A DNA stretch of 38,769 bases from a virus. Below the pieces are notes generated by a model. The model saw only the letters and a list, made by a program, of their open reading frames with translations, did not search any database and was not told the origin of the DNA. The translations under genes were made by a program, and so were the position numbers. The DNA lies in the IMG/VR virus record IMGVR_UViG_3300022745_000089, positions 1 to 38,769 of that record; one strand, written 5' to 3'. Positions 1-38,769 of this stretch are shown piece after piece; the first letter of the stretch is position 1, and each line of letters opens with the position of its first letter.

Positions 1-139
1 TACTAACTGCCCGCCTGTGATGTCCTTGGATAGGATGAGCACGTTAGAGAGGGAGCCGGGAACGTTGCCTTTATCAAAGTGATAGGGGATCGCAAAATTA
101 GTATTAAAATTTACAGTCTGGTATGGGCCCGGCATCCAT
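1..139. repeat. Terminal repeat, left copy
   Basis: Bases 1-126 are identical to 38631-38756. The next 13 bases (127-139 and 38757-38769) match except at three places: 127, 130 and 131. The repeat lies inside one reading frame that continues across the junction, so it is best read as assembly overlap of a circular or circularly permuted molecule. A physical short direct terminal repeat is possible but less likely, because the copies differ and would split a gene. Unique length is then 38,630 bp. Confidence 0.9.
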
Positions 140-576
140 CTCCAGTCGGCATTAACTTTGGACTCGACCCATGCCATGTCGCGCGCATACGCCTCCGGAA
201 ACGTCTCTCGATACATCCGATCGACATGCTGGTTAAAATCCATGAGTGGGGGGAGCATCTCCTTCTGATCGTGCGTCGGCCTAGAAAATCTACAGAAGCA
301 CGTCGACCTCGATGGGCTCGCGGGGAGCGTCCCGAAGACTGCGGCCCTGGTAGGTACGCCGTTAACACGCTTACTCATGGACATGTCGGCATTCTCGGCG
401 ATGTATCTCAGGCCATGGACCATAGACTCGGGGAGGATCTGATAGAGTAGTGCCGGCACTCCGTCGACATAGACGAGCGTATCTTCATCGATCACGGTCC
501 CCATCTGCTCCTCGGTTGGGACTTTGCCGATGAGAGTTTTGTCGGCGGGCTTATTTGTCAGATGTAGGATGCGCAT
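1..576 (-). CDS. TET/JBP-like 2-oxoglutarate/Fe(II) dioxygenase, N-terminal 192 residues (split at contig end)
   Basis: The frame opens at ATG 576-574, overlaps the end of the ParB-like gene by 26 nt, and runs off the left edge after codon 192 without a stop. Joined to 38630-38334 it gives a 290-residue protein. This part carries the first metal-binding motif HxD (H166-F-D168 in YHFDKGN), then the strand GSLSNVLIL and the turn ITGGQLV, a pattern typical of the TET/JBP branch of 2OG/Fe(II) oxygenases. The family hydroxylates the methyl group of 5-methylcytosine or thymine in DNA using Fe(II), O2 and 2-oxoglutarate. Residues 1-140 are not recognised. No DNA methyltransferase gene is visible, so the substrate is open: thymine, a host-made 5mC, or something else. 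Confidence 0.75.
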   Translation of the reverse strand, partial: MRILHLTNKPADKTLIGKVPTEEQMGTVIDEDTLVYVDGVPALLYQILPESMVHGLRYIAENADMSMSKRVNGVPTRAAVFGTLPASPSRSTCFCRFSRPTHDQKEMLPPLMDFNQHVDRMYRETFPEAYARDMAWVESKVNADWRWMPGPYQTVNFNTNFAIPYHFDKGNVPGSLSNVLILSKDITGGQLV

Positions 577-1171
577 AGTTTACTCCGATGAGATCGGCGA
601 TCAGGTGGCTATAGTTTTCAAAACCCTTCTCCTCGCACAGCGAGTCGAGTCTGCTCACGACATGGTCGTAGATATCGAGCGGGTAGACGACCTGTAGGTA
701 GCGCATGTCGTTGTTTAAAAAATTATCCAGCGCGGCGCCCTGATCCCCTCGAGCCGGAGGCCCTGCGTCGGACGGATCTAAACTAAAATCTTTTATCCCT
801 AGCAGATCTATATCAAAGTCCGGCCCTAGCTCCGGTAGGTCTAGATTAATCCCCGAGAGGTCGAGCTCGGCCCAGTCGGCGGTAGAGTTATCGGCGATCC
901 CGAACGCGTACTCGAGCTCCTCCGTCTCGAAGTCCTGATAGACCGCAGGGATTTTCTCGGCTCCCATTTTAAGCGCTGCCTCTAGCCTCCCGTGACCCGC
1001 TACTACGAGACCGCTACGGTTACTTACTACGACCGGCTGTCTAAATCCCTGATACTCGAACTGCTTTACGAGGTGCTCTATCTGCTCCTCGCTATGCTTA
1101 TTACGGTTCTTAGGGTTACGTTTTAACTGCTTCGGATCTACGAGGACGATATCTCGAGCGCGTATCTGCAT
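551..1171 (-). CDS. ParB-like N-terminal domain protein
   Basis: 206 residues. The ParB/sulfiredoxin-fold domain spans about residues 8-105: VDPKQLKRNPKNRNKHSEEQ, then GFRQPVVVSNRSGLVVAGHGRLEAALKMG split by the box-II-like motif GHGRLEAA, then an IADN motif. This GHGR/IADN form is typical of ParB domains attached to phage or plasmid DNA methylases, not of chromosome-segregation ParB, and no ParA is present. The C-terminal 60 residues look like a separate small helical unit. The SD (taggagg, 8 nt before ATG 1171-1169) is strong. It is first in a two-gene operon with the TET/JBP-like oxygenase, which overlaps it by 26 nt, so a shared role in DNA modification is the favoured inference. Nuclease, nucleotide-binding and kinase activities are all known within this fold. 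Confidence 0.8.
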   Translation of the reverse strand: MQIRARDIVLVDPKQLKRNPKNRNKHSEEQIEHLVKQFEYQGFRQPVVVSNRSGLVVAGHGRLEAALKMGAEKIPAVYQDFETEELEYAFGIADNSTADWAELDLSGINLDLPELGPDFDIDLLGIKDFSLDPSDAGPPARGDQGAALDNFLNNDMRYLQVVYPLDIYDHVVSRLDSLCEEKGFENYSHLIADLIGVNYAHPTSDK

Positions 1172-33484: not shown

Positions 33485-34011
33485 CAGATATCGATAAGGC
33501 CCTGGCCTATACGCTCGTTAACGAAGGTGGCTACTCGGATAACCCGGCCGACCATGGCGGTAAGACTCGCTACGGGATCACTCAAGCTACGCTCTCTAGG
33601 TGGCTACAGCGTCCGGCGAGTGTTAACGAGATTAAGACTCTCTCTAAAGAGACCGCGAGGGCGATCTATCAGGGCTACTACTGGCATCCGCTCGGATGTG
33701 ATCAGCTAAAGAGTCAGGCTATCGCTACGTGCTTATTTGATATCGGAGTCGTAAGGGGGATCTCGGTCCCGCCAAAGTATGCCCAATTGGTATGCAACCA
33801 GCACGGCTTTAACCTAGTCGTCGACGGACAGCTCGGGCCAAAGAGTATGAACGCCCTCGACTCGATCGATCCGACTAAGTTTATTATCGACTACGCGGCG
33901 ATGGTAAAGAAGGGCTTTGAGTCGATCGTGGCTCGTAATCTTTCGCAGAAGGTATTCCTTAAAGGCTGGACTAACCGGGCTAACCGTCTACTTACTCTCG
34001 TCGCGAACTAA
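33481..34011 (+). CDS. Glycoside hydrolase family 108-type muramidase (176 aa)
   Basis: The start overlaps the lipoprotein stop by 4 nt (ATGA). The active-site segment is VNEGGYSDNPADHGGKTRYG followed by IT, with catalytic Glu15, the hallmark of GH108 N-acetylmuramidases. The C-terminal half (VVDGQLGPKSMNALDSIDPT) corresponds to the peptidoglycan-binding part usual in the family. There is no signal peptide. It cleaves the glycan backbone and would complement the CHAP enzyme. The last 24 nt overlap the convergent resolvase gene. Confidence 0.87.
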   Translation: MTDIDKALAYTLVNEGGYSDNPADHGGKTRYGITQATLSRWLQRPASVNEIKTLSKETARAIYQGYYWHPLGCDQLKSQAIATCLFDIGVVRGISVPPKYAQLVCNQHGFNLVVDGQLGPKSMNALDSIDPTKFIIDYAAMVKKGFESIVARNLSQKVFLKGWTNRANRLLTLVAN

Positions 34012-34524
34012 GGCTACGGGCTTTTGTAGGTCGAGCGCATATCTAAATATAAATACTTCTAGCGCACAGTGCTCAGCCGGTAGTCTCCGAGAGAGATCAA
34101 GCGAGCAGATCAGGTGATCGTCTGAGATGATCCCGGCCTTAGTTAGGCAGTCGGCCGGTAGCTCTACGAGGTTCGATAGGTCTGGGATGCGCTGCGAGAG
34201 TCGTCCGCGTCTTGGGCCCTGCTTTACTACGAAGTCGTTAGCCTTAAAGTAAAATAAGAACACGCACCAGATAGGTTGATCGATCTCTTTAAAGTTAGGC
34301 TTACGTAGGATCGCTCTACGAAACTCCGAGATAAGATGAGCCTCGGCCGAGTGTAGCCCTTGCGACTTACCGATAAAGGCCCGGCCGGTCGAGCGGTTAC
34401 GGAAAATAGGTCGGCTATTCTTCTTAACCGTATGTTTATCGAGCCTTATGTAGGCGTGATAGAGCGCATCGCCGTTGGCTTCGATCTCGGCCCGTACTAG
34501 GTCAAAGGACTTAGTGCGGGTCAC
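33988..34524 (-). CDS. RusA-like Holliday junction resolvase (178 aa)
   Basis: Last gene of the minus-strand early operon, convergent with and overlapping the muramidase gene by 24 nt. The core motif is IPDLSNLVELPADCLTKAGI followed by ISDDHLI, matching the RusA pattern PDxxNLxKxxxDxL...GxIxDDxxI, with the acidic residues that bind magnesium. RusA enzymes cut four-way DNA junctions symmetrically and serve recombination-dependent replication and clearing of branches before packaging. It fits with the annealing-type recombinase upstream. Confidence 0.82.
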   Translation of the reverse strand: MTRTKSFDLVRAEIEANGDALYHAYIRLDKHTVKKNSRPIFRNRSTGRAFIGKSQGLHSAEAHLISEFRRAILRKPNFKEIDQPIWCVFLFYFKANDFVVKQGPRRGRLSQRIPDLSNLVELPADCLTKAGIISDDHLICSLDLSRRLPAEHCALEVFIFRYALDLQKPVALVRDESK

Positions 34525-34545
34525 GAGAGAGGGCCTACGTGGATC

Positions 34546-34746
34546 TTAGCTCGTTGGTTTAATCTTATAGGGGAGCACGAGGGCTGTTGCATGGGTGTTA
34601 GAGGCTAGCAGGGCTGCGGCGATAGACTCAAGGTGGTTTACACGCTCGAGCAAAAGTTTAGCCTCGTCCCGGCGGAGTCTGATCTCCGTACCCTCTGGCC
34701 TATGGATGTCGGTCGCGATGCGGTCGATTAGTAAATCGGTGTTCAT
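34546..34746 (-). CDS. Hypothetical early protein (66 aa)
   Basis: ATG 34746-34744 is chosen because GGAGGG lies 8 nt upstream. An earlier TTG (34794) would add 16 residues but has no SD and would run through a hairpin. The product is helical in the middle (RRDEAKLLLERVNHLESIAA, LLASNTHATA). No family is recognised. Its SD is inside the 3' arm of a perfect 9-bp hairpin (34756-34785), so its expression may be controlled at translation. Confidence 0.6.
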   Translation of the reverse strand: MNTDLLIDRIATDIHRPEGTEIRLRRDEAKLLLERVNHLESIAAALLASNTHATALVLPYKIKPTS

Positions 34747-34755
34747 GCTGTTGAC

Positions 34756-34785
34756 CCTCCGCACCAGAATCACATAGTGCGGAGG
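34756..34785 (-). promoter_or_regulatory. RNA hairpin sequestering the SD of the 66-aa gene
   Basis: In mRNA sense, ACCTCCGCAC starts just before a 12-nt loop and GTGCGGAGG closes the stem (plus-strand arms 34756-34764 and 34777-34785, 9 bp, perfect). The 3' arm contains GGAGG of the SD used by ATG 34746. There is no T-run after it, so it is more likely a translation control element than a terminator. Confidence 0.6.
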
Positions 34786-34821
34786 TTTAATCAAATTTAT
34801 GATAAAGGGCCGGGCCGATAA

Positions 34822-34944
34822 CTACAGAGATAAAATAAACATTACAACCCAGAGGGCGCCGAGAGTGCTCACGAGCGTAAGGGTCGCGACAAAGACCCAC
34901 GCGACTATGATCTGCTCGATCGATCCTCTATAGAGCGCGCTCAT
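34822..34944 (-). CDS. Small single-span membrane peptide (40 aa)
   Basis: ATG 34944-34942 overlaps the stop of the upstream gene (ATGA), and TAG is at 34824-34822. The product MSALYRGSIEQIIVAWVFVA... is mostly one hydrophobic helix from about residue 10 to the end, so it should sit in the inner membrane. Tight coupling with its neighbours supports a real gene. Comparable membrane peptides in phage early operons can inhibit host functions or exclude other phages, but no evidence here shows that. Confidence 0.6.
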   Translation of the reverse strand: MSALYRGSIEQIIVAWVFVATLTLVSTLGALWVVMFILSL

Positions 34945-35153
34945 ACGGGATCCATCTGAGGGCCTGCGCTAAGCCTCCCTCTTTTGCGCTGAGCATTTTG
35001 CCTATGCTGAGGACACATGGTCCACCAGGGATGTTTAATTAAAAACCTCTTACCGCAGCCGGGCTCGACGCAAAGGCCATACCTGCAGTCGGAGCACCAG
35101 CCCATGCGGTTATCGGCCTTCATCGCCTGGCCACATTTGCAGCAGGTTCTCAT
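34941..35153 (-). CDS. Cysteine-rich zinc-ribbon-like protein (70 aa)
   Basis: ATG 35153-35151 overlaps the preceding stop (ATGA). The Cys spacing is CxxC (RTCCKCGQA), CxxC (GWCSDCRYG), then CVEPGCGKRF and a final CPQHRQ, enough for two zinc sites. The C-terminus is basic (RKRGRLSAGP). Small treble-clef or ribbon proteins in phage recombination operons often bind DNA or assist nucleases. Nothing more specific can be said. Confidence 0.65.
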   Translation of the reverse strand: MRTCCKCGQAMKADNRMGWCSDCRYGLCVEPGCGKRFLIKHPWWTMCPQHRQNAQRKRGRLSAGPQMDPV

Positions 35154-35353
35154 AGGGCGCCCTCGCCGAGACGGATTAGCCAGAGAAAATCCCTTGGGCT
35201 CATCCTTACGCCGCTTGATCTAACGAAGCATCGCGCGCATTTGTTTCGAGGCTTACGAGCCCGAGGGTCTATCCCGGTCCCCTCGCAGATTTCGCAATCC
35301 TTGGGGTCGTGAAGGAGGCGCCGCAAAAGCTTTAGTCTAGTTTGTCTCGTCAC
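35150..35353 (-). CDS. Small CxxC protein (67 aa)
   Basis: Starts at GTG 35353-35351, coupled to the stop of the recombinase gene (GTGA). Two Cys pairs, DCEICEGTG and KCARC, resemble a single DnaJ-like CxxCxGxG zinc-binding motif half. The N-terminal helix is basic (MTRQTRLKLLRRLLHDPK). Probably a small zinc-binding protein acting with its neighbours on DNA. No known family can be named. Confidence 0.6.
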   Translation of the reverse strand: MTRQTRLKLLRRLLHDPKDCEICEGTGIDPRARKPRNKCARCFVRSSGVRMSPRDFLWLIRLGEGAL

Positions 35354-36303
35354 GGCTGCACCCCGTGCTGATTCTTAAAGTCCTTATCCTGAGCCTGCAT
35401 CTCTAGCCAGGCTAGATAGGCTCGGCACTTCTCGACGAGCTCGGAGAGCATACCGCTAGGCTTTTGTTTTAGAGCACCCTCGGCCCAAGTAATAGTCGAG
35501 CGGATCTCTTGGAGGGCTAGGAGCTTGAGAGGCTTATTCTTATTAAAGCCGCAGGGCATAATATAATCGCCAGGCGTCGTATCGGGGAGATTGCTACCGA
35601 TCAGGTTAGCCTCGTCGAAGCCTGGGCCCGGAGGCGGGAGGGGATGGTTATTACGGGCGACCTGATCTCTCATCGCTTTAACTAGGCCTGAGGCCGTCAC
35701 TGTTGAGGGTTTACCGGGCGAGGTAGATCTAGCCTCGCCCCAAGCTTGCTCGTCGAGGGCGGCCCACGCAGGGTCCTCTACCTCGATCGGAGCGGTTATA
35801 GCGGGCTTAGGTTTTACCTCGACGGGTTTAGGCTCGGCCAGGGCTAGGTCTTGAGCTAGTACCGAGTCGACCTCGGTCTCGTCGAGCAGGCCTAGGCCAC
35901 AGATAGAGAGGGTGACTCGTCGCTTAGCTTTAGTCTCGGCCTTTAGATAAGCGTTAGCTAGGGCCTCTCCCTTTAGTCCTACTAGAGGTACCGCTCCCGT
36001 AGACTCGTCCTCTCGACCGCTCGCGTCTCGGGCCTTAGCCGTAACTACGTAGACATCTCCCATAACTTCTCGAGCAGTAATATTAATCGAGACCTTATGA
36101 ATCTTACGAAGCTGATCCGTAGCATCTCGTTTAGCGTAGAGAGTTAACTTACCGCTAAGAGTTATATAGGCCAGGGGTTGAGTTAAGCTATTTAGTCCTA
36201 GGCTCTCACAGACAGAGCGGTAGTAGCTTAGTCTCTGATCCGGTGTTAGTCCGGCTAGATTGTTTTGCATTAAAGCAGATTCGATCGGTGTGATATCCGA
36301 CAT
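35350..36303 (-). CDS. Putative single-strand annealing recombinase-like protein (317 aa)
   Basis: ATG 36303-36301 with a strong SD (aaggagg). Residues 1-145 hold the conserved part: LTPDQRLSYYRSVCESLGLN, LAYITLSGKLTLYAKRDATD, QLRKIHKVSINI, then LVGLKGEALANAYLKAETKA followed by KRRVTLSICGLGLLDETEV. This pattern recurs in phage proteins beside RusA and nuclease genes. The ETKAKRRVTLSICGLG segment recalls the ERF/Rad52-type annealing proteins. The rest is a Pro/Glu/Lys-rich linker and a short helical C-terminus (EMQAQDKDF). It would anneal single strands during replication or recombination. The exact superfamily is uncertain. Confidence 0.62.
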   Translation of the reverse strand: MSDITPIESALMQNNLAGLTPDQRLSYYRSVCESLGLNSLTQPLAYITLSGKLTLYAKRDATDQLRKIHKVSINITAREVMGDVYVVTAKARDASGREDESTGAVPLVGLKGEALANAYLKAETKAKRRVTLSICGLGLLDETEVDSVLAQDLALAEPKPVEVKPKPAITAPIEVEDPAWAALDEQAWGEARSTSPGKPSTVTASGLVKAMRDQVARNNHPLPPPGPGFDEANLIGSNLPDTTPGDYIMPCGFNKNKPLKLLALQEIRSTITWAEGALKQKPSGMLSELVEKCRAYLAWLEMQAQDKDFKNQHGVQP

Positions 36304-36342
36304 AGGTTCGCCTCCTTAGTTAGTCGCCTTTTATTTACTTTG

Positions 36343-36921
36343 TCATTTAAAGTCTAGTGCCGATTTAGGTCTTAAGTCCTCTTCGGTGTAGTTACATTTC
36401 CCTAGGTTACAGTCTTCACAAAGTATCTGTAGGTTATCGATATCGAGCTCTAGCTCTGGATATTTACTCCTAGGTTTTATATGATCTACGTGCATTGGAT
36501 TACCAGGACTACCAGGCTTAAAACAGGCCATACAGGTAGGACCGTATTTACGTAAAACTTTAAATCTCAACTCTCTCCACTCTCTACTCTCATAAAAACC
36601 TACTACCTGATTTTTTAATCTCTCTTGCCTACGAATCTGTCTACGCTGACGCTTCTCTATCGTAGATAGGCCAACCTCCTGCGCTCTAATCGTAGGCTTA
36701 CCCGGTCTACGTAAACATCTTTTACTACAGAACCCATCGTGACCATTCCCTCTCGCGTTTAAGATCCCATAGCGCTTAGAGCATTTAGGACATCGAGCGT
36801 GACCTAAACCTGCGTCTCTCTTTTTTTTTGATTTTCTCCAAAGGCTAATTTTTTGAAACTCTTCTGCCTTTGCTGCATAAGCCTTTTTTTGCTCTTCGGT
36901 TAGTACGACTATTCGCCTCAT
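36343..36921 (-). CDS. HNH endonuclease (192 aa)
   Basis: First gene of the minus-strand operon, ATG 36921-36919. Residues 44-69 contain a Cys2-Cys2-type zinc element (RCPKCSKRYG, GFCSKRCLRR). Residues 130-175 form the HNH site: CMACFKPG, HVDHIKPRSKYPELELDIDN, LQILCEDCN, with HVDH metal and catalytic histidines and a treble-clef Cys pair. The gene is AT-richer than its neighbours (several A/T runs, including T9 at 36821-36829), which suggests recent acquisition. Such enzymes may act in packaging, host DNA attack or homing. The place at the head of the early operon does not decide which. Confidence 0.85.
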   Translation of the reverse strand: MRRIVVLTEEQKKAYAAKAEEFQKISLWRKSKKKRDAGLGHARCPKCSKRYGILNARGNGHDGFCSKRCLRRPGKPTIRAQEVGLSTIEKRQRRQIRRQERLKNQVVGFYESREWRELRFKVLRKYGPTCMACFKPGSPGNPMHVDHIKPRSKYPELELDIDNLQILCEDCNLGKCNYTEEDLRPKSALDFK

Positions 36922-37203
36922 CTACTACTCCATAATTACTGCAAGACCTTAATGTTCGAACCTCTGGCGTAAAGTCGCCCCTTACCCCATAGAGGTTTGA
37001 GAGAGACTTTTACGGACTACAAGACCTTGAACGTCCCGAACCCCGTTTGGCGAACCGTTTAAAATCCACACTTATTATCGAGCCCTTTAGCAAGCCAAAG
37101 GAGTCCTTCGGTGAGTAGGTAGCCGACGGTCGCGGCAGATCGCCCCTAATACCACTGGCGTATAATTCCAGATACGTTAAGGGATTTTGGTACACCGGCG
37201 ATA

Positions 37204-37266
37204 ACTACTAGTAGTTTTAGGTTGCTCTAGCCCGATCGGGCATGAGAGTCTTCGACCACTAGTAGT
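37204..37266. promoter_or_regulatory. Three evenly spaced palindromes, likely operators
   Basis: Site 1 ACTACTAGTAGT (37204-37215) is a perfect 12-bp palindrome. Site 3 ACCACTAGTAGT (37255-37266) is the same with one change. Between them GCCCGATCGGGC (37230-37241) is a different perfect 12-bp palindrome. Centres are 26 and 25 nt apart, about 2.4 helical turns each. The set looks like binding sites for one or two dimeric proteins, perhaps the HTH protein encoded at 37490. Confidence 0.55.
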
Positions 37267-37289
37267 TCGTTTCGCAGCGCCTACTTTAG

Positions 37290-37325
37290 ATCCCGGCTGG
37301 CCTAAAAGTCTCCGGGATTTTCTTT
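37290..37325 (+). terminator. Rho-independent terminator, plus strand
   Basis: ATCCCGG (37290-37296), a 15-nt loop and CCGGGAT (37312-37318), followed by TTTTCTTT. The T-run is on the plus strand only. No plus-strand gene lies upstream of it for more than 3 kb, so it must end an unannotated transcript or block antisense reading. Confidence 0.7.
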
Positions 37326-37410
37326 ATCGACGCGCCGAACCCCTATTAAAATCTAGCTCAGATGCGATATACGCGAGATGTACTATCTCGACACACTACG
37401 TCGATAGTTT

Positions 37411-37428
37411 ATGCATCTCTAGACGCAT
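37411..37428. promoter_or_regulatory. Imperfect 18-bp palindrome upstream of the HTH gene
   Basis: ATGCATCT-CT-wards AGACGCAT: outer four base pairs and three inner pairs match, with one mismatch. This is the size and symmetry of an operator for a helix-turn-helix repressor, 62 nt before the HTH gene start. A small CGAGAT/ATCTCG hairpin (37374-37390) lies just upstream. Confidence 0.35.
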
Positions 37429-37439
37429 CGCGCTATCCT

Positions 37440-37475
37440 GTGTCTGTACTGCTCGATGATCGGGCAGACGGACAC
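37440..37475 (+). promoter_or_regulatory. Long hairpin in the leader of the HTH gene
   Basis: GTGTCTGT (37440-37447) pairs with ACGGACAC (37468-37475; one G-U), then after a bulged A, CTGC with GCAG, a T-G pair and CGAT with ATCG around the centre at 37458. The structure ends 2 nt before the SD aggag (37477-37481). It may act as an operator in DNA or as a leader structure that modulates translation of the regulator. Confidence 0.5.
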
Positions 37476-37489
37476 TAGGAGTCACCCAC

Positions 37490-37678
37490 ATGAAGACCGG
37501 TAAACAGATCAGAAAATTCCGCCTCTCTAAAGACATCTCGGCCGATCAGCTAGCTAAGCGTCTCAAGATCACTAGCAAGCACCTACGCCGTATCGAGAGA
37601 GGCGAGCATGGCCTGAGCGAGGACGTAGCTCGCCGCCTCCAGGCCGCTCGTAAATCTATTTCTAAGAAGGCTGGCTAA
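37490..37678 (+). CDS. XRE-family HTH transcriptional regulator (62 aa)
   Basis: ATG 37490, SD aggag at 8-nt spacing. Almost the whole protein is one HTH_3 domain: GKQIRKFRLSKDISADQLAK, RLKITSKHLRRIERGEHGLS, then EDVARRLQAARKSISKKAG. It resembles a Cro-sized DNA-binding protein with no dimerisation or cleavage domain. It heads the rightward early operon and faces the leftward operon across a region full of palindromes, so it probably controls one or both. The next gene starts 1 nt after its stop. Confidence 0.85.
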   Translation: MKTGKQIRKFRLSKDISADQLAKRLKITSKHLRRIERGEHGLSEDVARRLQAARKSISKKAG

Positions 37679-37679
37679 G

Positions 37680-37988
37680 ATGGGTACGCCTAAGCACGCT
37701 CCCCTACCCTGGCGGGTCTCGGGGAGTACGGCCTCGACTCAGACTACGATAATAGCCATGGACGACCTAGGCCACGACCTAGTCGTCGCTACGATCACTA
37801 GGACGGGCGCTGAGGCGTTGGCAGACGCTAGGCTTATCTCGGCTAGCCCGGAGCTACTGCAGGCCCTCCTGTACGCTCGTGCGGCCCTACCGGCGATTTC
37901 AGCTACGGACCGAGAGGCCGCGACTAAGGCTGCGACCTACTGCTATATCGACGAGGTGATAGCTAAAGCTACGGGCGGTGCCGAGTGA
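37680..37988 (+). CDS. Small early protein with DARLISASPELL motif (102 aa)
   Basis: ATG 37680. The pattern HAPLPWRVSG... followed by ALADARLISASPELLQALLY is that of a widespread small phage/prophage protein (consensus HTPGPWxx...NARLIAAAPELLEAL) of unknown function, usually in early regions. The middle of the protein is a three-stranded beta segment (TIIAMDDLGHDLVVATIT) and the end is helical. The stop overlaps the next start by 4 nt (GTGA). Confidence 0.72.
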   Translation: MGTPKHAPLPWRVSGSTASTQTTIIAMDDLGHDLVVATITRTGAEALADARLISASPELLQALLYARAALPAISATDREAATKAATYCYIDEVIAKATGGAE

Positions 37989-38311
37989 CTACCAAGAAAC
38001 GTTACGATTGGAGCGATCTTCAGGGGTACTACCTAGTACTTCGGGACGACCTTAGGCCTAAGACTATCGGTGCCGTAACTCTGTATACGCGCGAGATGCA
38101 CGTCGGCAGTGTACTTTTGCACAAGGATGATTTGCTTTACGTCGACGCAGTATGCTCTCCCGAGGTCGCAGTCTACACTGAGAGCGAAATTATGAACCTC
38201 GAGGAGCGTTACACGCTTAGGCAGACTGGAGTGATCACGACGAGCGAGCTCCGTCGACTGATTAAAGAGGGCTCAATCGCCCGCGTAATCGAGGCCCAAG
38301 AAAATGATTAA
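37985..38311 (+). CDS. Hypothetical early protein (108 aa)
   Basis: Starts at GTG 37985, coupled to the previous stop. An alpha/beta protein with YDWSDLQGYYLVLRDDLRPK, VGSVLLHKDDLLYVDAVCSP and a charged helix at the end (ELRRLIKEGSIARVIEAQEN). No motif identifies it. Last gene of the rightward early operon. It converges with the TET/JBP-like gene with a 22-nt gap. Confidence 0.6.
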   Translation: MTTKKRYDWSDLQGYYLVLRDDLRPKTIGAVTLYTREMHVGSVLLHKDDLLYVDAVCSPEVAVYTESEIMNLEERYTLRQTGVITTSELRRLIKEGSIARVIEAQEND

Positions 38312-38333
38312 ATCGTACTAATCGATAACTCTA

Positions 38334-38768
38334 TCAGGTACCGGGCTCCCGCTTAGCGAGGAGTCCACGGTTCATTTTGCGGACCTTATCTAGGCGCTCA
38401 GCATTGGTCCGGCGCGCTCTCTCAGTCAGTCTAGTCTGAGTCCTAGAGATCTCCTCAGACCTCGAGCCACAGGCAGCCATCGCCCTCAGCGTGTAGTAAA
38501 CTATCGACGACCTATAGCTACGCTCGCCGCGTAGATACTTGATCGGTCTCACTCCGTGCAGCAGGCCCTCACCGTTAAATAAAGTCCATGCCCTATCCCT
38601 CTGCGAGAGAGATACGCCTAGAGTTGGGCATACTAACTGCCCGCCTGTGATGTCCTTGGATAGGATGAGCACGTTAGAGAGGGAGCCGGGAACGTTGCCT
38701 TTATCAAAGTGATAGGGGATCGCAAAATTAGTATTAAAATTTACAGTCTGGTATGGTCCGCGCATCCA
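38334..38768 (-). CDS. TET/JBP-like 2-oxoglutarate/Fe(II) dioxygenase, C-terminal part (split at contig end)
   Basis: Continuation of the gene at 576-1; the bases 38631-38768 duplicate 1-138. New sequence is 38630-38334, codons 193-290, ending in TGA 38336-38334. It supplies the second metal ligand and co-substrate residues: H217 in GEGLLHGVRPI and R232 in ERSYRSSIVYYTL. With H166 and D168 this completes the HxD...H...R set of active 2OG/Fe(II) oxygenases. The last 50 residues are a basic helical tail (TQTRLTERARRTNAERLDKV), possibly for DNA binding. In this copy residue 149 is Arg where the left copy has Pro. Confidence 0.75.
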   Translation of the reverse strand, partial: WMRGPYQTVNFNTNFAIPYHFDKGNVPGSLSNVLILSKDITGGQLVCPTLGVSLSQRDRAWTLFNGEGLLHGVRPIKYLRGERSYRSSIVYYTLRAMAACGSRSEEISRTQTRLTERARRTNAERLDKVRKMNRGLLAKREPGT

Positions 38769-38769
38769 T
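38631..38769. repeat. Terminal repeat, right copy
   Basis: Copy of bases 1-139 with substitutions at 38757, 38760 and 38761 (t, g, c in place of g, c, g). The differences change one residue in the oxygenase (Pro to Arg, residue 149) and one silent position, so two genome variants seem to have been joined at the contig ends. Confidence 0.9.

Follow-up and report, generated by a model that had tools for sequence, protein, structure and literature searches.

A ParB and TET/JBP gene pair of a tailed phage as a candidate oxygenase form of an exchangeable cassette for DNA base modification

Two overlapping genes on the minus strand, encoding a ParB-like protein and a TET/JBP-type oxygenase, lie at the start of the window, by which we mean the whole stretch of DNA analyzed, the 38,769-bp virus record IMGVR_UViG_3300022745_000089. 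The ends of this record, 1..139 and 38631..38769, are an imperfect repeat of each other over 139 bp, with 136 matches and three mismatches at overlap positions 127, 130, and 131; the mismatches point to differences between strains or to an assembly end. Because the ends share these 139 bp, the genome is very probably circularly closed or permuted, with a length of about 38.6 kb. The other recognizable genes are ordinary, namely those for terminase, portal, Mu-F-like, capsid, and tail fibre proteins, together with lysis genes (GH108, CHAP) and nucleases (HNH, RusA) identified in Pfam and profile scans. Many window ORFs had no assigned family in the Pfam scans, Rfam and tRNA searches across the window gave no matches, and no named phage was close to the region 33991-38769 at the DNA level. 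A plus-strand gene at 1542-2222 encodes about 60 residues of low-complexity Ala-Tyr-Ala-Asp repeats (AYAYADAYA). Over nearly the whole genome, TpG (0.70) and CpA (0.67) were depleted and TpA (1.24) was enriched (observed/expected), an unusual signature that may be a pointer to the host. Restriction-site avoidance was weak in the window, with no clear target motif.

The oxygenase gene starts at 576 on the minus strand and runs off the contig start. Residues 1-192 are encoded by 1..576, with the HxD at 73-81, and residues 146-290, including the full catalytic core, by 38334..38768 (minus strand) at the other contig end. The initial annotation, which had placed the pair at 1-1171, was thus right for both genes as far as that interval goes, but the oxygenase gene continues at 38334..38769, and the 290 residues given for the protein are obtained only after joining the contig ends. 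The catalytic core is independent of the join because the unbroken ORF 38334..38768 alone contains H166 (38709-38711), D168 (38703-38705), H217 (38556-38558), and R232 (38511-38513), all on the minus strand. These residues, the HxD...H...R ligands of iron and 2-oxoglutarate, were invariant in an alignment with five actinophage homologues. Pfam Tet_JBP matched at 47.7 bits against a cut-off of 34.9 (E=1.3e-12), which confirmed the TET/JBP identity first assigned from the letters. For structure, the oxygenase of L111, the closest pair (37% identical to the window's), was modelled by AlphaFold (pLDDT 90.8), and its best structural matches were NgTET1, CcTet, TET2, and CMD1, with E down to 8e-11. 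Judged on this close homologue as a stand-in for the joined window protein, the predicted fold is that of a DNA-acting TET. The window oxygenase has the Fe/2OG fold and the HxD..H..R set in common with eukaryotic TET/NgTET1 and kinetoplastid JBP, whereas its identity to solved TETs is about 10-13%, the R+8 His is replaced by Leu/Met, and eukaryotic accessory domains are absent.

The ParB-like gene (206 aa; 551..1171, minus strand) has a Shine-Dalgarno AGGAGG just upstream, and Shine-Dalgarno-like sequences precede both genes of the pair. As first described, it is a ParB-fold partner (Pfam ParB_N, 33.1 bits against a cut-off of 26.3) that overlaps the oxygenase gene by 26 nt (551..576, minus strand). 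Its N-domain, residues 1-135 (767..1171, minus strand), is an NTPase-fold module with GHGR at residues 59-62 and ELGPDFDIDLLGI at 114-126. The GHGR box, with the Box II arginine, was invariant among the aligned ParB relatives, and this arginine is required for NTP binding in this fold (PMC12704722). The AlphaFold model of the window ParB (pLDDT 86) has a CTPase-type N-domain, and its top PDB match was ParB bound to CDP (E 2e-6). The C-terminal tail, residues 136-206 (554..766, minus strand), matched no Pfam family; its predicted helices at 165-182 and 187-194 were confident in the model, after an extended stretch, and by inspection the tail is read as ribbon-helix-helix-like. The 206-aa protein ends after this tail, and a fused N6_N4 methyltransferase is absent. 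A partition protein was rejected as an identity, given no ParA family among the scanned ORFs and no HTH domain in ParB.

Pfam scans of the larger window ORFs found no DNA-modifying enzyme besides the oxygenase. C5 methyltransferase (PF00145) and N6/N4 methyltransferase (PF01555) had no match anywhere in the record, in agreement with the initial annotation, and profile searches for TAGT (TET-associated glycosyltransferase), ADDT, and Ploopntkinase3 likewise had no match anywhere in it. The system can be called "minimal", as had been proposed, insofar as it lacks a second-step enzyme.

Relatives of the pair were collected by tblastn with the oxygenase, which matched 84 actinophage records at about 26-31% identity; in IMG/VR, a single-sequence search returned nothing and a family alignment returned 282 relatives, of which 80 were kept. 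The actinophage matches were often annotated "queuine tRNA-ribosyltransferase" or "oxidoreductase". The former label, carried by many actinophage TET/JBP genes and by PHROG 6059, is apparently a propagated misannotation, and we rejected it as a name since Pfam gives Tet_JBP and not transglycosylase. In 80 of 86 loci, a ParB-like gene lay no more than 3 kb upstream of the oxygenase; the six exceptions were the window's own copy (other strand), Matzah, three loci near a contig end, and L075, and that of Matzah is an ORF-calling artefact, its gp1 being annotated ParB. In KayaCho, LittleMunchkin, and Matzah, the oxygenase gene directly follows ParB-like gene 1, and in Tonitrus one gene intervenes. 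Thirty-four ParB/TET pairs were directly adjacent, nearly all of them overlapping by 1-74 nt. Such a pair is therefore not undescribed, contrary to the first proposal: the five-gene island of Rhodococcus phage Tonitrus, with ParB, TET, aGPT-Pplase2, and 5hmU-kinase, has been published and proposed to carry out thymidine hypermodification (PMC11955845). As in the window, a TET/JBP gene of this family is preceded by a ParB-like gene in the Tonitrus island, in Gordonia and Microbacterium phages, and in mycobacteriophage KayaCho. However, Tonitrus-type islands contain ADDT and/or Ploopntkinase3, of which the window has neither, and their ParB N-domain is of a distant lineage.

The genes near the relatives' oxygenases included TAGT, ADDT, P-loop kinases, a DAO-type oxidoreductase, GNAT, and an FkbM-type methyltransferase. 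Among 23 records searched, TAGT was present in 12, ADDT in 6, and a kinase in 8, while a C5 methyltransferase was found in two, one of them a partial match. The supposition that such pairs normally act with a methyltransferase was thus not upheld, C5 methyltransferase being absent from 21 of the 23 records. What is unusual in the window is the lack of a second-step enzyme (glycosyltransferase, kinase, or amino-acid:DNA transferase), unlike nearly all relatives; TAGT, ADDT, kinase, and C5 methyltransferase were all missing only from the window, L038, and L070 among the 23 records, and in L038 a gene of the FkbM cluster sits between ParB and TET. All five actinophage relatives checked contained Ploopntkinase3 and three also ADDT, with a C5 methyltransferase in none. 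In L111 and L164, which have the same ParB type as the window, searches for TAGT, ADDT, kinase, and C5 methyltransferase gave no match, the L164 record being a 26-kb fragment. Several labels and arrangements in these relatives were also recorded. KayaCho gp3 (L002:1802-2377), annotated as terminase small subunit, matched Ploopntkinase3 with 367 bits, and Matzah gp3, noted as a HicA-like toxin, is another match to this kinase; L079 (a 327-kb contig) and L074 each hold two TET/JBP genes accompanied by tandem ParB-like genes.

The N-domain of the window ParB is common to phages with other modification enzymes. Of 13 aligned relatives, 11 shared 50-62% identity with it and the other two 43-44%, and the highest identity in the N-domain tree set was 63%. 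The closest sequences were not ParBs of TET pairs; to TET-linked ParBs the N-domain aligned weakly, and those of actinophages were 18-24% identical to the window ParB over the whole protein. L087, a whole-phage relative (terminase 46%, portal 48%, and capsid 49% identical), has the ParB N-domain fused to an N6_N4 methyltransferase. A wider N-domain search returned 80 loci from viruses and 44 from genomes, which were sorted by the enzyme fused to, or directly behind, ParB, with classes set by BLAST cluster. With class names from Pfam scans of representatives rather than of every protein, and some loci representing the same contig twice, the classes were N6_N4 fusion (75), separate N6_N4 (3), Mom (12), D12 methyltransferase (7), C5 methyltransferase (4), TAGT (7, plus one with an added methyltransferase gene), P-loop/AAA protein (2), no enzyme (5), and TET/JBP (L111 and L164, plus the window). 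Phage ParB-N6/N4 methyltransferase fusions (PHROG 498), whose N-domains are 50-62% identical to the window's, have been surveyed (PMC12704722); in place of their methyltransferase, the window has a TET-type tail and a separate TET gene. Similarly, Mom, known from Mu, adjoins the same N-domain in the 12 loci; its chemistry is unrelated to that of the window oxygenase, and it is swapped at the same position. Among individual loci, L090, L093, and L158 have ParB with a TET-associated glycosyltransferase and no Tet_JBP gene in the record. L221 is a ParB plus D12 cassette (N-domain 57% identical) in a contig binned as Candidatus Bathyarchaeota; this contig may come from an archaeal virus or have been binned wrongly. 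L124 and L133 are two similar ParB N-domains on one 40-kb contig (IMGVR_UViG_3300032116_000506), one fused to a methyltransferase and the other without enzyme, through either duplication or the joining of two strain variants by the assembly.

We then compared the ParB tails. A profile made from the last residues (80-110) of the distant TET-linked ParBs was run on the tails of the ParBs from the N-domain searches, viral and genome loci alike. It scored 38.4 bits for L164, 36.4 for L111, and 30.9 for the window, with the next best at 6.3; the three ParBs with a TET-type tail are exactly those whose next gene is TET/JBP. For tails without a fused enzyme, 48 homologous pairs fell within the same enzyme class compared with 17.7 after shuffling, none of 10,000 shuffles being as high, although the tail adjoins the enzyme gene, so that co-transfer alone could link the two. 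Mean N-domain identity was 59.1% within and 58.5% between classes. The link between tail and enzyme was not one-to-one, as a CPxCG tail occurred with Mom, D12, C5, or no enzyme. Short tails ending in a single CPxCG-type cysteine pair were seen in L091, L104, L123, L134, L143, and L166; the single pair is half a zinc site, which a partner may complete.

On a tree of 78 N-domains, 28 changes were needed to account for enzyme class, compared with a mean of 28.9 after shuffling, where the tree had 140 columns and half of its forks unresolved, which inflates the count; as judged from this tree, enzyme type is scattered over the ParB family. Well-resolved cases hold independently of it. L123, L124, and L128 form one group with 98% support and carry no enzyme, N6_N4, and Mom, respectively. 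The N-domains of L123 and L128 are 97% identical, and the immediate flanks of all three are 89-94% identical DNA. Their homology stops near ParB codon 140-144, in or just after the conserved ELGPDFDIDLLGIKNF, and resumes where the next gene starts or shortly downstream of that point, before terminase is reached. The same break region was found for L107/L108 (P-loop versus N6_N4) and L173/L164 (N6_N4 versus TET). These shared flanks with breaks at the end of the ParB domain indicate that the cassette between the ParB N-domain and terminase is exchanged. The window pair lies on the opposite strand and not next to terminase, unlike L164 and L087, a placement that tells against the cassette reading given below; the pair would have moved or been acquired separately.

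As for the base that is modified, we infer from several indirect indications that thymine is the likelier substrate. In the actinophage relatives, the same enzyme family is coupled to thymidine hypermodification through its kinase and amino-acid transferase steps, and no C5 methyltransferase is encoded in the window. Furthermore, TpG is 0.70 and CpG 1.23 observed/expected in the window genome, and a depletion of TpG with enrichment of CpG is no footprint of 5mC deamination. The histidine at TET2 R+8, which we take to contact cytosine, is replaced by Leu/Met in all 89 family members examined; this also favours thymine, but L061 has Leu at R+8 in a record with a C5 methyltransferase, so R+8 Leu does not decide the base. 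Because of this counterexample, neither R+8 Leu nor an Asn located three positions past the HxD Asp was accepted as a thymine/cytosine discriminator.

We propose, with a probability of roughly 0.55, that the pair represents the oxygenase form of an exchangeable cassette with which tailed phages modify DNA bases, and in which a ParB with an enzyme-matched tail serves an enzyme that most likely converts thymine to 5hmU. The conserved NTPase-fold N-domain of ParB would act on or along DNA, making ParB a common accessory or targeting module, and the tail would link ParB, separate but translationally coupled, to its partner. The oxygenase would hydroxylate the 5-methyl of a pyrimidine in phage DNA, using 2-oxoglutarate and Fe(II), with 5-hydroxymethyluracil from thymine as the most likely product, and the modified genome would be shielded from host nucleases. 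As the genome encodes no second step, the pathway would probably end with the hydroxymethyl (or further oxidized) base, unless a host enzyme decorates it.

Several other explanations were weighed against this cassette. The pair might be what is left of a thymidine-hypermodification or glycosylation island of three to five genes, whose kinase, transferase, or glycosyltransferase was lost or is replaced by a host or unrecognized enzyme. The presence of TAGT, ADDT, or Ploopntkinase3 in nearly all relatives and the many window ORFs without a family agree with such decay, which we nevertheless consider unlikely: the ParB and oxygenase genes are intact, L111 and L164 (the latter a 26-kb fragment) also lack TAGT, ADDT, and kinase, and the searched families are missing in two more relatives, L038 and L070. 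That the oxygenase is a true TET acting on 5-methylcytosine made by a host methyltransferase appears quite improbable; its closest solved structures are 5mC TETs and two of the 23 records (one by a partial match) encode a C5 methyltransferase, but the window, L111, and L164 lack one, and the TpG/CpA depletion with CpG enrichment, the Leu/Met in place of the TET2 R+8 His, and the thymidine-type second steps of the actinophage relatives all point the other way.

The role of ParB itself can also be read differently. ParB domains have been reported as NTP-regulated or nonspecific nicking nucleases, and ParB may thus have some function other than that of a targeting subunit; the ParB-methylase Bce_0392 is reported to nick DNA and other ParB-like proteins to be NTPases/DNases (PMC5512222), and DndB, which is also ParB-like, binds NTP and represses a modification operon (PMC12704722). 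The window ParB could accordingly be an NTP-regulated nicking nuclease or an autoregulatory repressor, its linkage reflecting self/non-self discrimination or expression control. We regard this as doubtful, since the enzyme-matched tails and in-frame methyltransferase fusions suggest direct physical coupling. Finally, pairing and swaps might be by-products of recombination, with ParB a conserved anchor beside a variable region of mosaic phages. Breakpoints at a conserved motif and variants without any enzyme (L123, L146, L166) would fit, but this too is held to be unlikely because all enzyme classes at the locus, the P-loop type excepted, act on DNA bases, and the excess of same-class tail pairs (48 against 17.7, 0/10,000 as high) speaks against it.

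ParB-TET pairs and ParB-methyltransferase fusions are each already known, separately. In the freely readable part of the literature searched, we found no account of one ParB N-domain common to about seven enzyme types, nor of ParB cassette exchange with an enzyme-specific tail; priority is uncertain. Little is understood of the way in which the base-modifying enzymes of phages locate and treat phage DNA, and the ParB-like proteins next to them mostly carry annotations as partition proteins or nucleases. As a tentative extension, the phage ParB-like family may be a universal, interchangeable targeting subunit, with one N-domain, matched adaptor tails, and a recombination hot spot; the window would be its TET form, in which two proteins would suffice. 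At such a hot spot at the ParB-domain end, methyltransferase, Mom, glycosyltransferase, and TET would be swapped while ParB is kept. If one ParB module does serve many chemistries through exchangeable tails, it would be a general plug-in site for counter-restriction enzymes, and ParB plus tail would offer a way to discover modification enzymes not yet known. With no additional enzymes, the ParB-TET pair is the smallest form with an oxygenase in which this plug-in idea can be tested.
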